Below, in pieces: positions 3,242-40,071 of a stretch of 43,078 nt of DNA. Origin of the DNA: a virus; the IMG/VR virus record IMGVR_UViG_3300024346_000147, positions 1-43,078 of that record. One strand, given 5' to 3'. Every line of letters starts with the position of its first letter. Position 1 is the stretch's first letter. The notes under the pieces were generated by a model. It ran no database searches, was not told the origin of the DNA, and was given only the letters and a program-made list of their open reading frames with translations. Both the position numbers and the translations under genes were made by a program.

Positions 3242-3498
3242 TGTCAGATACTATGTTAGATGACTTAGCCGAGTTTTTCAAAGATAAAAACCTCGATATG
3301 GAATGCCATGAATACTGTGCACATATAACAGCACCGTACTCTAGACAGCAAATCCGTAAAGAGTTTAAGTCTTACGAAACTATGATAGGCTTACTAAAGT
3401 CACAAGATAAAGAATTAAAGGTTTCAGCTAAAATAAAATTAGCGCCTGGCAAGACTAAAGTTGATAGAGGAGTCACTAAGAATGAAACTAAAAAGTAA
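3241..3498 (+). CDS. Small unknown protein between portal and protease-capsid genes
   Basis: This 85-residue charged protein is not recognised. It starts at an ATG that overlaps the portal stop and has a GAGGAC SD inside the end of the portal gene. It overlaps the following protease-capsid start by 17 bases, so it is tightly coupled on both sides. The N-terminal half is acidic and has a Cys/His-containing segment (MECHEYCAHIT). The C-terminus is very basic (KLAPGKTKVDRG...NETKK). Position suggests a head-assembly accessory or scaffold partner, but no motif shows this. Confidence 0.7.
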   Translation: MSDTMLDDLAEFFKDKNLDMECHEYCAHITAPYSRQQIRKEFKSYETMIGLLKSQDKELKVSAKIKLAPGKTKVDRGVTKNETKK

Positions 3499-5395
3499 TA
3501 AAATAGTTAGTCTTAATTCCTCAATTAGCTCAGTGACTAAATCTTCGGATGACTCTGATGATTTAATTATCGAAGGTTATGCCAATACTACTGATAAAGA
3601 TCGCGCAGGCGATGTAATTGTCAGATCAGCTTGGGAAACCAAAAATGCACTAACTAATTATTTAAAGAACCCTGTTATTCTAGCTTTCCATGACCATTCA
3701 CGTCCTGTTGGTAGAATGATTGAACATGAAGTTACTGATCAAGGACTTCGAATTAAAGCAAAAATCTCTAAAGCAGCTGGAGAAATCTACCAGTTGATTC
3801 AGGACGAAGTTATTACAGCTTTTTCTGTTGGTTTTAGGGTACTTGACGCAGACTATGATACTGCAACTGACATCTTTCTTATAAAAGACTTGGAATTGCA
3901 TGAAACTTCGGTAGTATCTGTTCCAATGAATCAAACAAGCATCTTTTCTATATCTAAGTCTTTTGACACGGATGAAGAAGTTGCAGAATTCAAATCACTT
4001 TACACAACAAACAAATCCGTGTCTGAGAATGACCATCCTAACGAGGAAATTTTAATGAATGAACAAGAATTGAAGGCTCTTATTGAAGCTACACTTAAAA
4101 CCAATAACGCCGAAGTAGAGCGCGCCCGCTTAGAAGCAGAAGAAAAAGCTGCTAAAGAAAAAGCTGCTGCAGAGCGTGATGAAGTAAGAATCGGAGTAAT
4201 GGTTAAGTCTCAGACTGAGCGTTTACTTGCTGATCTTGAAAAGTCACAAAAAGAAGGCGCTGAAGCTTTTGCTAAGCAGGTAGCTTTGCTACAGACTGAT
4301 ATCAAAAGTAAGGACGAAGAAATCCGTTCTATCTTAGCAGCTAGAGACAACAAGATGCATTATGGCGATGAAAGCGCTAAGAGTGCATTTACATCTAAAG
4401 AAATCGAAGATGCTTATATCCTTGCTAAAGTATGCAAGAAGGACCTTTTTGATACTAAGTTTGGTAGAAAACTATCAGAGAAAGCAGTTAACGCTTCTTC
4501 TTCTGGCCAGGTTTCTTCTGATAAGTACGAGCAAGAAGTAACTTCTAGACTATATGAGTCTATGAAAGAAATGCTTACTGTACAGCCATTGTTCAGAGAG
4601 ATTCAATTGAACTCTGCAACTCAAATTTTGCCAATCAATCCTAATTCAACAAGTGCTGGTTGGGTTGACGGTGCAAACTACGGTGCTGCTGCAAGTACTG
4701 GTGCTGAACTTACTAAAGCATTGACTGAAATCACACTTAATACTTTCAAGCTTGCTGGTAAGTCTTACATCACTGATGAAACAGATGAAGATGCAATCAT
4801 ACCTATCCTTCCGTTACTACGTGACCAGTTGGTAGAAGCTCACTCTTTAGCTATCGACAGTGCGTTTATTAGCGGTTCTGGTGTTGCTAACAACCCTACC
4901 GGTTTGATCACTCGTGCCATAGCTACTGCGGGTAGCGCTGTTTCAGTTACAACTGCTAAAGCAGATGGTTCTGTTAAAGTTACAGCTAAAATGTTACTGC
5001 AAGCTAGACGCGGTCTAGGACAGTGGGGCTTGAGCATGAAAGACTTAGCATTGGTTGTTTCTATGGACGCTTATTGGGATCTTTTAGAAGATACCGAGTT
5101 CCAGAACATCAATGAAGTTGGTGCAATGGCTACTAAGAAAACCGGCCAAGTTGGTATGGTTTACGGTATGCCCGTAATGGTATCTACACAAATGCCTACT
5201 AAAGCTGTAAACGCAGCGTATGCAATTATTGTAAATACTAAGAACTTTGTTGCTCCACGTCTACGTGGTTTCAACATTCAAAGCGACTACGATGTTGAGA
5301 AGCAACGTAGAGTTATCGTATCAACCCAGAGATTGGGCTTTAACGATATCATCGCTAATCAAGGTGTGGCAATCGCGACTTACGCAGCGGCCTAA
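3482..5395 (+). CDS. Fused HK97-type prohead protease and major capsid protein
   Basis: This is a 637-residue fusion. Residues about 28-160 are a U35-type prohead protease with likely catalytic His70 (LAFHDHSRP) and Ser115 (TAFSVGFRV), followed by ELHETSVVSVP. Residues about 192-291 are a charged, Ala/Glu/Lys-rich coiled coil resembling the HK97 delta (scaffolding) domain. Residues about 300-637 are an HK97-fold coat protein (QILPINPNSTSAGW, SGSGVANNPTGL, GMVYGMPVMVS). The ATG at 3482 has a GAGGAG SD; an in-frame TTG 21 bases upstream is a poorer start. In HK97 itself the protease and capsid protein are separate genes. An internal start (separate entry) probably supplies extra capsid subunits without the protease. 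Confidence 0.93.
   Translation: MKLKSNKIVSLNSSISSVTKSSDDSDDLIIEGYANTTDKDRAGDVIVRSAWETKNALTNYLKNPVILAFHDHSRPVGRMIEHEVTDQGLRIKAKISKAAGEIYQLIQDEVITAFSVGFRVLDADYDTATDIFLIKDLELHETSVVSVPMNQTSIFSISKSFDTDEEVAEFKSLYTTNKSVSENDHPNEEILMNEQELKALIEATLKTNNAEVERARLEAEEKAAKEKAAAERDEVRIGVMVKSQTERLLADLEKSQKEGAEAFAKQVALLQTDIKSKDEEIRSILAARDNKMHYGDESAKSAFTSKEIEDAYILAKVCKKDLFDTKFGRKLSEKAVNASSSGQVSSDKYEQEVTSRLYESMKEMLTVQPLFREIQLNSATQILPINPNSTSAGWVDGANYGAAASTGAELTKALTEITLNTFKLAGKSYITDETDEDAIIPILPLLRDQLVEAHSLAIDSAFISGSGVANNPTGLITRAIATAGSAVSVTTAKADGSVKVTAKMLLQARRGLGQWGLSMKDLALVVSMDAYWDLLEDTEFQNINEVGAMATKKTGQVGMVYGMPVMVSTQMPTKAVNAAYAIIVNTKNFVAPRLRGFNIQSDYDVEKQRRVIVSTQRLGFNDIIANQGVAIATYAAA
4055..5395 (+). CDS. Probable internally initiated major capsid protein (delta domain plus coat)
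   Basis: Within the fused gene an in-frame ATG at 4055 (residue 192 of the fusion) is preceded by GAGGA (4043-4047), 7 bases away, which is a good SD spacing. Translation from here gives a 446-residue protein: about 100 residues of Ala/Glu/Lys-rich coiled coil, then the coat domain. HK97 capsid protein likewise begins with a delta domain of about 100 residues that its protease removes. This start would let the cell make many capsid subunits for each protease-containing fusion. The site is seen in the sequence; its use is inferred. Confidence 0.6.
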   Translation: MNEQELKALIEATLKTNNAEVERARLEAEEKAAKEKAAAERDEVRIGVMVKSQTERLLADLEKSQKEGAEAFAKQVALLQTDIKSKDEEIRSILAARDNKMHYGDESAKSAFTSKEIEDAYILAKVCKKDLFDTKFGRKLSEKAVNASSSGQVSSDKYEQEVTSRLYESMKEMLTVQPLFREIQLNSATQILPINPNSTSAGWVDGANYGAAASTGAELTKALTEITLNTFKLAGKSYITDETDEDAIIPILPLLRDQLVEAHSLAIDSAFISGSGVANNPTGLITRAIATAGSAVSVTTAKADGSVKVTAKMLLQARRGLGQWGLSMKDLALVVSMDAYWDLLEDTEFQNINEVGAMATKKTGQVGMVYGMPVMVSTQMPTKAVNAAYAIIVNTKNFVAPRLRGFNIQSDYDVEKQRRVIVSTQRLGFNDIIANQGVAIATYAAA

Positions 5396-5406
5396 AACCT
5401 AAAGTT

Positions 5407-5435
5407 ATAAGTCCGGGGTAACCCGGGCTTATTTT
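5407..5435 (+). terminator. Intrinsic terminator or attenuator after the capsid gene
   Basis: An 11-bp stem (5407-5417 with 5422-5432, one G-T pair) closes a GTAA loop (GNRA type) and is followed by TTT. It lies 11 bases after the capsid stop. It probably ends a share of transcripts so that capsid mRNA exceeds mRNA for the neck and tail, and it may protect the 3' end of the capsid message. Confidence 0.8.
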
Positions 5436-5469
5436 CATATGCTTTTTAAAGCAGAGTATATGAAAATAA
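5429..5469 (+). promoter_or_regulatory. Second hairpin overlapping the terminator
   Basis: A perfect 12-base inverted repeat (TTATTTTCATAT at 5429-5440 and its complement at 5458-5469) can pair. The inner bases 5441-5445 and 5453-5457 extend it with G-T pairs. The left arm takes the last four bases of the terminator stem and its whole T run, so the two hairpins cannot form at the same time. It ends one base before the AGGAGGT SD of the next gene. An antiterminator or processing role is inferred. Confidence 0.55.
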
Positions 5470-5480
5470 GAGGAGGTAAT

Positions 5481-6044
5481 ATGGCTTTAGTTACATTGGA
5501 AGAATATAAAGAATACTATAAAATAAGTAGTGCCGAAGGAGATGACAGACTATCCTCTATGATAGATTTAGTCAGTGAACTTGTAGAAGTTTATCTTAGC
5601 AGAAACATAGCATCAGAGGTCTACTCTGATGTGTACTTGGAACTTTTAGGAAGCAGTGTTTACACTCCTAATTTCCCTATAGAGAGTATATCTTTACTAG
5701 AATACTTCGACAAGTCTACAGAGACTTGGGTAGCAATAGACTCTGCAAATTACTTTGTAGAGGAAGATAATGGTATCATTGAGATACTAGATTCATCTAT
5801 ACTGTCCCTAATATCCGGTAAAAGACGTAAGCCTGTAAGGGTCTCTATGACTGCGGGTTATTCAATAGTACCTTCAGACTTAAAGTTGGCTGTTTTTGAC
5901 TTAATAACTTATTACAATAAACGTCAGCAGACACCTGTAAGAAATATGTCTGGTCAGGGTGTTGATACTACTGCAGGGTTAAATGGATCTGAAATGCCTG
6001 CCCATATAAAGAGGGTACTAAGCCTGCACAGGCTACCTGCATGA
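5481..6044 (+). CDS. Head-tail connector (adaptor) protein
   Basis: This 187-residue protein resembles the head-tail connector family of HK97-type phages, whose members bind below the portal. Indicators are the N-terminal LEEYKEYYKIS and DDRLSSMIDLVSELVEVYL helices, the central strand region with FPIESISLLEYFD, and the PSDLKLAVFDLITYYNKRQ helix near the C-terminus. The start chosen is the ATG at 5481, which has a perfect AGGAGGT SD 3 bases upstream. An earlier in-frame ATG at 5439 lies inside the hairpin region and has no SD. The stop overlaps the next start (ATGA). Confidence 0.75.
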   Translation: MALVTLEEYKEYYKISSAEGDDRLSSMIDLVSELVEVYLSRNIASEVYSDVYLELLGSSVYTPNFPIESISLLEYFDKSTETWVAIDSANYFVEEDNGIIEILDSSILSLISGKRRKPVRVSMTAGYSIVPSDLKLAVFDLITYYNKRQQTPVRNMSGQGVDTTAGLNGSEMPAHIKRVLSLHRLPA

Positions 6045-7342
6045 GTAACTCCTCACTCTCTGAATTTTTAATGTCAGTAGCGGACGAGTACATGAGTAAG
6101 GCTCTTTATGACGATTTCAAAAAAGAGGCGTATAAACATACTCATTATTTTAGTTATGGAAGACGCGAGTTAAAGAGTATGTTTACTACTAGCGATGGCA
6201 AACGTTACTCAGCCAATGTTTATAACATCATAGTAAAAGCTATAAGATCTCACCCAGATGTTAAAAGTAATTTGTACAGACCTAGTGAAGACGAAAAATT
6301 ACCTCCGGGACTAAATAGAGCCACCACCTTAGAATTTAATAACTTTGCTGCCTCAGCAAAGGTTATATCGGCTCTTAAAGTACTAATCGCAGAGGCGCTA
6401 GACGAGTTATATACTATATCTAATGACGAAGAAATAAAAACCTTATCGAATAAATTTTCGGATAATGACGGTAAATATATGCATAGGGGTCATGTAACAG
6501 GCACCCTAACCCAAAAGAACGCGTATAACAGAGATAAGTTCTCCCTGAGAGAGGGGGAAATACGTAAGGCACTTGGCGGAACTGCACTATTAAATAGGTC
6601 CAATGCACTAGTAAACAGATTAGTACAGCTTGACATGAGTATGCACTCAAATAAGAAGCTGACCTCTAAAGGTGTACTTGCTAACGAGTATTCTATTCTG
6701 GTATTTGAGTATGGTAAAGGTAAGGATGGTAATGCATCCACCGGCTCCCAAGCTAGAAATACTACTATAAAGCTAAGAAACATTCTAGTCGCAAACCTAG
6801 AGAAAATGGCTCTTAGATTAGAAAGTTCTCCGTCTAATATGAAAATGATAGAAGATCATATTTCAGATACTCTACATGGGAAAAAGACTACTAGGAAGTA
6901 CTCTGGTAAGTCCAAGAAAGTATCTCGCAAGAAAAAATTCAAAGTAAATACCCAAATTGTTAAGTTAAAAAAGACAATGGCAGGGTCCAATACTGATGAT
7001 GAGCAAGAAGTAACCAATTACATCGGTATACGCAACCTAATAAATGCTAGCCTACCAGATGTAGTGCGAGCTAATATGGGGTCACCTGCGCTGAACAACA
7101 GAACAGGACGATTCGCAAATAGTGTTAAAGTAGAGAGCATCGCACCTTCCAGAGGTAGGCTTATCTCTATATTTTACTCTTACATGAATAACCCATACCA
7201 AACTTTTGAACCCGGGTTCGCCCAAGGATCCTCTGACAGAGACCCCAGGAACGTTATTAGGAAATCTATAAGAGAGATAGCTTCTGGACTTATGGAAGAG
7301 AAATTTAGGTCCTACAAGGTTACAGGAGGTAATACAGAATGA
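6041..7342 (+). CDS. Putative neck / head-tail joining protein
   Basis: This 433-residue protein lies between the connector and the tail-terminator candidate, overlapping both by ATGA junctions. The N-terminal 280 residues are helical and unrecognised. A strongly basic linker follows (about residues 283-304, rich in Lys, Arg and Ser). The C-terminal 90 residues contain NNRTGRFANSVKVESI and RDPRNVIRKSIREIA, which remind me of small neck or tail-completion proteins (HK97 gp10-like). It is much longer than those families, so the C-terminal domain may be fused to an extra N-terminal module. The function is inferred mainly from gene order. Confidence 0.5.
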   Translation: MSNSSLSEFLMSVADEYMSKALYDDFKKEAYKHTHYFSYGRRELKSMFTTSDGKRYSANVYNIIVKAIRSHPDVKSNLYRPSEDEKLPPGLNRATTLEFNNFAASAKVISALKVLIAEALDELYTISNDEEIKTLSNKFSDNDGKYMHRGHVTGTLTQKNAYNRDKFSLREGEIRKALGGTALLNRSNALVNRLVQLDMSMHSNKKLTSKGVLANEYSILVFEYGKGKDGNASTGSQARNTTIKLRNILVANLEKMALRLESSPSNMKMIEDHISDTLHGKKTTRKYSGKSKKVSRKKKFKVNTQIVKLKKTMAGSNTDDEQEVTNYIGIRNLINASLPDVVRANMGSPALNNRTGRFANSVKVESIAPSRGRLISIFYSYMNNPYQTFEPGFAQGSSDRDPRNVIRKSIREIASGLMEEKFRSYKVTGGNTE

Positions 7343-39261: not shown

Positions 39262-40071
39262 TTATTTAGATTCCTTAATTGTCTTTGTTGTATATAAGTT
39301 GGTTAGTTCATTTATTGTTAAAATCTTGATACCAAGACTCTCGGCCTTGGTTCTAGATGACGAGTGTCTACCCTCTTCATCAATTAGGTAATCAGTGGTT
39401 TTATTTACTGACCCACGTACTTGAAAGCCAAGACTTTTTAAATGGTCTTGCGCCTCTGTACGATTTTTAAAGTCGTTTAACTTTCCAGTTATAACAACCG
39501 ATACGCAGCTTGTTCCAGATAGTACATTGGGTGTTTCTTCTGACTCACTAACATGGGATATTTGAGTTACTGGTATTTCTCTGTATTTTTCGATGTACCA
39601 TATTTGCTCAATCCATTCCCATAGATTAGCTCTAGCCTTATCACCTAACCCTGCTTCCTTCATTGTATCTGGAGTGATACTTCCTATATCACTTATAATA
39701 GCTCCTAGTTTGAAAGCAGCTGTAGTACCTATGAGCGGTATACTGAAAGCTGCTAGGAAGGTGGGGAAGTCCTTTATTTTTGATCTTTCTATTTCATCAT
39801 AGAGCTTAGTTCCTACCTTATCACCCACAGCGTCTTGAATGTCATCAATAGACAGCTCATATAACTCTGGGATAGAGGAAATTCCTAATTTCTCGATTGT
39901 CTTAGGCCCCATGCCTTTTATCTTCATAGTCTTGCAGTAGTGTTCTAACTGTTTACCGGCTCGGGCAGAGCATAGTTTATTTCTACAAAACAGTTGATCA
40001 TTTACAAGCTCTAAGGGAGAGTTGCACGAGGGACAATATGTTGGGGCTATAATTTTCAAAAATTCTTCCAT
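39262..40071 (-). CDS. NAD-dependent DNA ligase, C-terminal subunit (T5 LigB-like)
   Basis: This 269-residue protein holds the second half of an NAD-dependent ligase: a four-cysteine zinc finger (Cys13, Cys16, Cys29, Cys34; YCPSCNS, CRNKLCSA), helix-hairpin-helix repeats (MKIKGMGPKTIEKLG, FSIPLIGTTAAFKLG) and a C-terminal BRCT domain (VVITGKLNDFKNRTEAQDHL ... KTTDYLID). The catalytic half is the adjacent gene at 40125-41114. Phage T5 also splits its ligase into two genes. A promoter lies in the gap, with its -10 only 17 bases before this ATG, and there is no SD. Confidence 0.93.
   Translation of the reverse strand: MEEFLKIIAPTYCPSCNSPLELVNDQLFCRNKLCSARAGKQLEHYCKTMKIKGMGPKTIEKLGISSIPELYELSIDDIQDAVGDKVGTKLYDEIERSKIKDFPTFLAAFSIPLIGTTAAFKLGAIISDIGSITPDTMKEAGLGDKARANLWEWIEQIWYIEKYREIPVTQISHVSESEETPNVLSGTSCVSVVITGKLNDFKNRTEAQDHLKSLGFQVRGSVNKTTDYLIDEEGRHSSSRTKAESLGIKILTINELTNLYTTKTIKESK

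Follow-up and report, generated by a model that had tools for sequence, protein, structure and literature searches.

Head assembly needs few proteases, hundreds of coat subunits and a protease located inside the shell, which raises a question about genes in which the two proteins are joined. One such gene is found in a 43 kb virus fragment (IMG/VR record IMGVR_UViG_3300024346_000147, 43,078 nucleotides, taken over its whole length and hereafter referred to as the window), where a prohead protease, a linker, a delta (scaffolding) domain and a coat protein follow one another in one reading frame (Table 1). Does this frame yield a single polyprotein, or is a coat gene with its own start nested within it? 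An earlier note on this DNA had favoured the latter, and a nested gene would meet the requirements for both number and location with one frame.

A protease-coat fusion in a T5-related head module

The fused protein matches Peptidase_S78 (residues 20-159, E 2.6e-15) and Phage_capsid (residues 351-620, E 3.6e-19) in Pfam, and the NCBIfam models TIGR01543 and TIGR01554 both score over their cut-offs; an S78-type protease domain and an HK97-type coat domain thus occupy a single open frame, which makes it a protease-coat fusion. No other Pfam protease family was matched in the Pfam and NCBIfam searches and a PDB search using the protease alignment gave no match, while His70 and Ser115 are present without exception both in ten T5-like proteases and in 46 fused proteins. 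An AlphaFold model built from a 46-sequence alignment (mean pLDDT 76.6; an earlier model from a 12-sequence alignment, with a pLDDT of 49, was too poor and was not used) consists of the protease domain, a disordered linker (residues 177-193), long helices (194-237 and 245-289) and the coat fold, and its top Foldseek matches are the DT57C and T5 capsids. The single stop-free frame with protease, coiled coil and HK97-type coat described in the earlier note is thus borne out. The helical domain does open with the Met encoded at 4055-4057 (Met192 of the full-length protein), as had been said of the coiled coil, but the delta domain is about 143 residues long by alignment with T5, rather than the ~100 residues given in the earlier note. 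Two further IMG/VR contigs, L001 and L002, share the fused frame and depart from the window sequence by 8 differences in 9.3 kb and by 2 in 4.1 kb respectively, so that an assembly error behind the fusion is unlikely.

The window coat is homologous to T5 pb8, its best solved structures being the DT57C and T5 coats, and it aligns to residue 1 of mature pb8 (PDB 5tjt, E 6e-76), the delta domain being predicted to end at K143|A144. Identity to T5-like phages is ~35-41% for the coat and 40-53% for the protease, and the order of the head genes is that of T5 (terminase, small endonuclease-like gene, portal, small gene, protease, coat, adaptor, neck, terminator, tail tube). The protease C-terminal tail of the cultured T5-like phages (..LEKLAxALG..) and the stop codon that follows it are missing from the window gene. 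The nine cultured references and the 18 separate-gene representatives all encode protease and coat as two genes, but the window has them in a single frame, and we therefore call the head module T5-related rather than a member of the named family Demerecviridae.

Several neighbouring genes are also of note. The gene following the coat probably starts at 5481 (AGAGGAGGTAATATG) and not at the first ATG, at 5439. The neck/tail-completion gene (6041-7342) encodes 433 aa, compared with ~255 aa in T5-like phages, and the family match is confined to residues 350-392, leaving a long N-terminal extension. A small HNH-like gene between terminase and portal (1613-1984) occupies the position of the T5-like nicking endonuclease gene. 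A short NAD-dependent DNA ligase-like gene (39262-40071, ~268 aa) lies among bottom-strand replication genes that include a polymerase, DnaB, helicases and an SbcC-like protein.

Table 1. Features of the fused protease-coat gene and its surroundings (window coordinates; SD, Shine-Dalgarno sequence)
Feature	Position	Strand	Details and basis
SD of the protease/fusion start, GAGGAG	3467..3472	+	Spacing 9 to ATG 3482; pairing energy -8.6 kcal/mol
Full-length frame, prohead protease - linker - delta domain - coat, 637 aa	3482..5395	+	Stop-free; same frame in L001 and L002; AlphaFold
S78-type prohead protease domain, ~residues 1-175	3482..4006	+	Pfam PF04586
Protease His70 codon	3689-3691	+	
Protease Ser115 codon	3824-3826	+	
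Linker with internal ribosome-binding site, unconserved, disordered in model	4010..4054	+	Alignment; pLDDT <50 at 177-193
Internal SD, GAGGA, encoded by Glu-Glu (GAG GAA)	4043..4047	+	Pairing energy -5.9 kcal/mol; spacing 7
Putative nested coat gene from internal ATG, delta + coat, 446 aa	4055..5395	+	Met aligned with separate coat starts; column-unique ATG and SD
Delta (scaffolding) domain, helical, 143 aa	4055..4483	+	AlphaFold helices; T5 alignment
Predicted mature coat, 303 aa, AVNASSS..., T5 pb8-type HK97 fold	4484..5392	+	Alignment to 5tjt; Foldseek
Terminator-like hairpin directly after coat gene	5407..5432	+	Consensus scan; annotated terminator at same place in T5 record

Conservation of a candidate start site at the protease-delta junction

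Both elements of the candidate internal start, the ATG and the GAGGA seven bases ahead of it, lie where the earlier note had placed them, and the Met at 4055 aligns with the coat start Met of the nine cultured T5-like phages, whose coat genes are separate. Judged by sequence and conservation, the window gene has a second start within it, in frame and preceded by a separate ribosome-binding site. In the nearest relative, L015 (~67% protein identity), GAG GAA and the ATG are unchanged whereas the codons around and between them have changed; together with the information profile of 49 lineages described below, this gives a positive answer to the question, raised in that note, of whether SD and ATG are kept more than the flanking codons.

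Viral contigs were searched twice, with coat profiles and with protease profiles, the search peptides lying outside the junction. Together with the loci already in hand, and counting near-copies, the two domains share one frame at 97 loci and are encoded by separate genes at 68. The fused loci represent 49 lineages at <90% identity, mostly just 35-48% identical to the window, and all 49 possess an SD and ATG at the protease/delta junction, in the same column in 39 cases and displaced in 10, although the lineages are mutually related, so that these counts and the p values below overstate independence. The column of 4055 has an ATG in 39 lineages, every one with an SD, while the runner-up column has 12. 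Pairing energies average -6.2 kcal/mol and are -4.1 or lower in 49/49 lineages; the anti-SD assumed for these and all other pairing energies may not match that of the host exactly. Values of -5.3 or lower occur at the junction in 47/49 lineages, compared with 8.5% of 637 other in-frame ATGs, and an equally strong combination of SD and ATG is found in 7% of the other 40-codon stretches of the fused genes. The spacing between SD and ATG is 5-11 bases, mostly 7 or 10. The displaced starts, which were chosen post hoc, lie 2-26 codons away and have SD energies of -5.6 to -11.8. Nine loci fetched from genome contigs after the hypothesis had been formed (two near-copies among them; L183 was left out as its frame is broken) all have an SD and ATG at the junction, in each case at a shifted position.

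Codon usage at the junction is also unusual. The Lys preceding GA is encoded by AAG in 32/35 cases, compared with 96/451 (21%) elsewhere (p 4e-17), and Glu by GAG in 14/28 cases, compared with 43/411 elsewhere (p 8e-7), which points to selection acting on the RNA rather than the protein. Across the 49 lineages information content is highest from -12 to -7 and over the ATG, with a trough at -6 to -4, a base-by-base profile that is, on alignment, that of a ribosome-binding site. Synonymous recoding is a less discriminating test: 48 of the 49 real sites beat their own recoded mean, but recoded junctions still average -4.1 and the per-lineage test is weak (combined p 0.024 over 49 lineages) because the conserved Lys and Glu residues themselves spell the SD. 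These upstream residues thus explain part of the strength of the junction SD.

The internal start for coat alone postulated in the earlier note is therefore strongly supported by comparison, well in excess of what chance would give, through its presence in all 49 lineages, the codon bias and the later loci. In this large group of uncultured T5 relatives, coat is very probably also made by itself from the conserved internal ribosome-binding site, and one gene probably gives two head proteins.

Some of the fused relatives (L176-L185) come from contigs that binning assigns to marine Gammaproteobacteria (Halieaceae, Porticoccaceae and others), which is a weak hint as to host; two of them were assigned to Parcubacteria, and L183, whose frame is broken, to Bacteroidetes. 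In Salmonella phage MET_P1-88 (L175) the coat gene is annotated as three pieces, an arrangement that looks like the result of sequencing errors.

Candidate junction starts in other fusion families

PAJU2 and its relatives are not close kin of the window gene, and nevertheless have an ATG and SD (often GAGGAGG-like) at the junction in 41/41 lineages; one of the six search peptides used for this family spans the site, and most members do not match that peptide. In PAJU2 itself the SD ahead of the junction ATG is almost perfect. In the actinophage family of the Microbacterium EE phages and their relatives, an ATG or GTG with an SD is present at the junction in 36/48 lineages, against a background of 9%, and ten lineages use GTG. 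Interchange of ATG and GTG fits a start codon, but not a methionine conserved for the sake of the protein. Among the remotest EE-like relatives (L338-L352) the junction ATG is often kept but the SD is weak, perhaps because their hosts rely less on SD sequences. A junction start is found in 4/5 Maggie-like phages, and the single genes of Circum and Nocturne116 have candidate internal starts.

We considered whether an internal start is universal in such fusions and rejected this, since no conserved one is present in the Circum-like actinophage family: a junction start occurs in 33/58 cases against a background of 32%, and is not clearly conserved. Fusions can thus apparently exist without an internal start, which is common rather than universal. 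The junction in this family (L357-L436) is a variable, mostly acidic linker, unlike that of the other fusion families.

It is perhaps an even chance that in-frame nesting of the coat with an internal ribosome-binding site recurs in at least three unrelated HK97-fold lineages (T5 relatives, PAJU2-like and actinophage EE-like), that genes described as polyproteins or fusions are two-product genes, and that the separate genes of T5 may have arisen by gain of a stop.

Predicted strengths of the two starts

The earlier note further took the internal start to be what fixes the protease:coat ratio. This is plausible but is not supported in that form, as the internal SD is not predicted to be stronger than that of the protease (-5.9 and -8.6 kcal/mol respectively in the window, with fused-clade means of -6.2 and -7.1) and the protease start is no less accessible in folding predictions. 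Predicted strengths therefore show no excess of coat. As a predictor of the ratio, SD strength was discarded: it runs the opposite way in the fused genes and is no better a guide in phages with separate genes. The internal sites do resemble the coat starts of separate-gene T5-like phages, with no significant difference in SD (-6.2 compared with -6.0) and with matching local folding. Predicted folding is weaker at the internal sites (-3.2 kcal/mol) than at random in-frame sites (-8.2 kcal/mol), but the effect is gone against same-base shuffles (z -0.05); base composition explains the openness of the site, which was dropped as evidence for a start. Promoter-like matches between 3000 and 5700 occur only at the level of shuffled sequences, giving no sign of an internal promoter before the coat.

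Alternative explanations and the history of the fusion

If translation began at 3482 only, every coat subunit would be made as a protease-delta-coat polyprotein from which the protease is freed by autocleavage. Such a reading agrees with the open frame, with the good ribosome-binding site of the protease start and with the existence of Circum-like fusions that have no clear internal start, yet it leaves the SD and ATG of all 49 lineages, their shifts in position and the codon bias unexplained. Autocleavage has been proposed for the PAJU2 fusion (as cited in PMC8306868), yet PAJU2 itself has the almost perfect junction SD noted above, and an SD with ATG recurs in all 41 lineages of its family; we consider a single polyprotein improbable. 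The site might instead slow ribosomes as they pass from the protease domain to delta, aiding folding without any initiation. Pausing at SD-like sequences has been proposed in general for domain boundaries, and the site does sit at one, but slowing needs no ATG, whereas an ATG is always present within the observed range of spacings, and the interchange of ATG and GTG in the EE-like family has no place in such a scheme, which we regard as very improbable.

The remaining alternatives concern the origin of the fusion. A leftover of a two-gene state, now out of use, would be expected where the site is found, namely where separate-gene relatives begin their coat, and in Vibrio phage JSF12 protease and coat are in one frame with just a stop and one codon between them, an architecture that differs from the fused one by a single in-frame stop codon. 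An unused site should, however, have decayed over the divergence of these lineages, whereas sites have moved yet stayed strong and the codon bias persists. One fused/separate change suffices on the coat tree, and midpoint rooting nests the separate genes within fused diversity, which would make the separate state derived, although the root is not settled because the outgroups of both coat and portal trees are too distant to fix the direction of change. That the start is vestigial thus seems to us hardly credible. A further view accepts the internal start and denies only a tethering role: the stop was lost by chance, the fusion has no role, and a nested coat and a working protease domain suffice. 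The frame between the two genes is indeed free in separate-gene relatives (matching in 5/18), and JSF12 is one stop codon away from fusion. A frame without function is nevertheless difficult to reconcile with the single change on the coat tree, with the portal tree, where separate genes again form one clade, or with linkers that vary widely in length while the frame is kept; no reversal to separate genes was found within the 49 fused lineages, although split genes would have been picked up by the searches with protease and with coat. We judge an accidental fusion unlikely, if less so than the other alternatives.

Proposed mode of expression and assembly

We think it highly likely, taking all its parts together, that this is a two-start gene, in which a fusion translated from 3482 tethers the protease into the prohead, delta-coat is translated from 4055, and the delta domain is subsequently cleaved. 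Ribosomes starting at 3482 would produce the protease-delta-coat fusion, and those starting at 4055, using the SD at 4043-4047, would produce delta-coat alone, the shell builder, presumably in excess. Scaffold projects from the shell toward the interior (PMC10275583), and the fusion could join the shell through its delta-coat part; the protease would then be carried into the prohead and face inward, alongside the delta domains. A T5 prohead contains 775 coat subunits, from which the protease removes the scaffolding domain (PMC5292684). The window protease may cut near K143|A144 in nested-product numbering, which is K334|A335 in that of the full protein, and this would strip delta from all subunits and the protease from the fused ones; we infer the exact cut site from the T5 alignment. 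Nesting would thereby tie each protease to the coat subunit that carries it in, while most coat is made alone.

If correct, many database entries for a "capsid polyprotein" or "fusion" give one of two products, with wrong start sites and coat precursor masses. PAJU2 and the Microbacterium EE phages are in culture, which makes the idea of a nested gene directly testable.

Comparison with known systems

Fusions of protease and coat are on record for Arthrobacter phages (PMC5513430, which also mentions the lambda fusion) and in thaumarchaeal proviruses (PMC6563490). Genes annotated as a major capsid and protease fusion are present in PAJU2, Microbacterium EE phages, Curtobacterium phage Barebow, Arthrobacter phages of the AM, AU and AN groups, thaumarchaeal proviruses and Lactococcus phage Nocturne116, and resemble the window gene in that an HK97-fold coat is joined at its N-terminal end to a prohead protease. 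The proteins they encode have no relationship, or a very remote one, to those of the window, and they are described as single fusion proteins or polyproteins. The EpicDab paper discusses a different internal ATG, ahead of the protease. Such fusions are therefore already known, and the new part appears to be the conserved internal coat start within them: the open-access literature, as far as its texts were accessible, yielded no description of an internal coat start in protease-coat fusions or of a coat nested in a protease gene.

Nesting as such has a precedent in lambda, where the scaffold gene Nu3 lies in frame within the protease gene C, one frame having two starts. The analogy with C/Nu3 drawn in the earlier note is apt in its logic but does not extend to homology, since among the Pfam protease families the window protease matches Peptidase_S78 alone. 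The nested product also differs, being scaffold only in lambda, where the coat is a separate gene, and scaffold plus coat in the window.

HK97, which had served as the reference, has a protease (gp4) and coat (gp5) of the same families as the window, with the scaffold as the N-terminal delta domain of the coat, but its protease and coat genes are separate and its coat is only weakly similar in sequence. T5 is the closer system (~40% identity and the same gene order). T5-like phages (Demerecviridae; protease pb11, coat pb8) share with the window the gene order, the coat start point, a delta domain on the coat and a terminator-like hairpin after the coat gene; they have two genes parted by a stop, whereas in the window the stop and the protease tail are gone and the frame is continuous.
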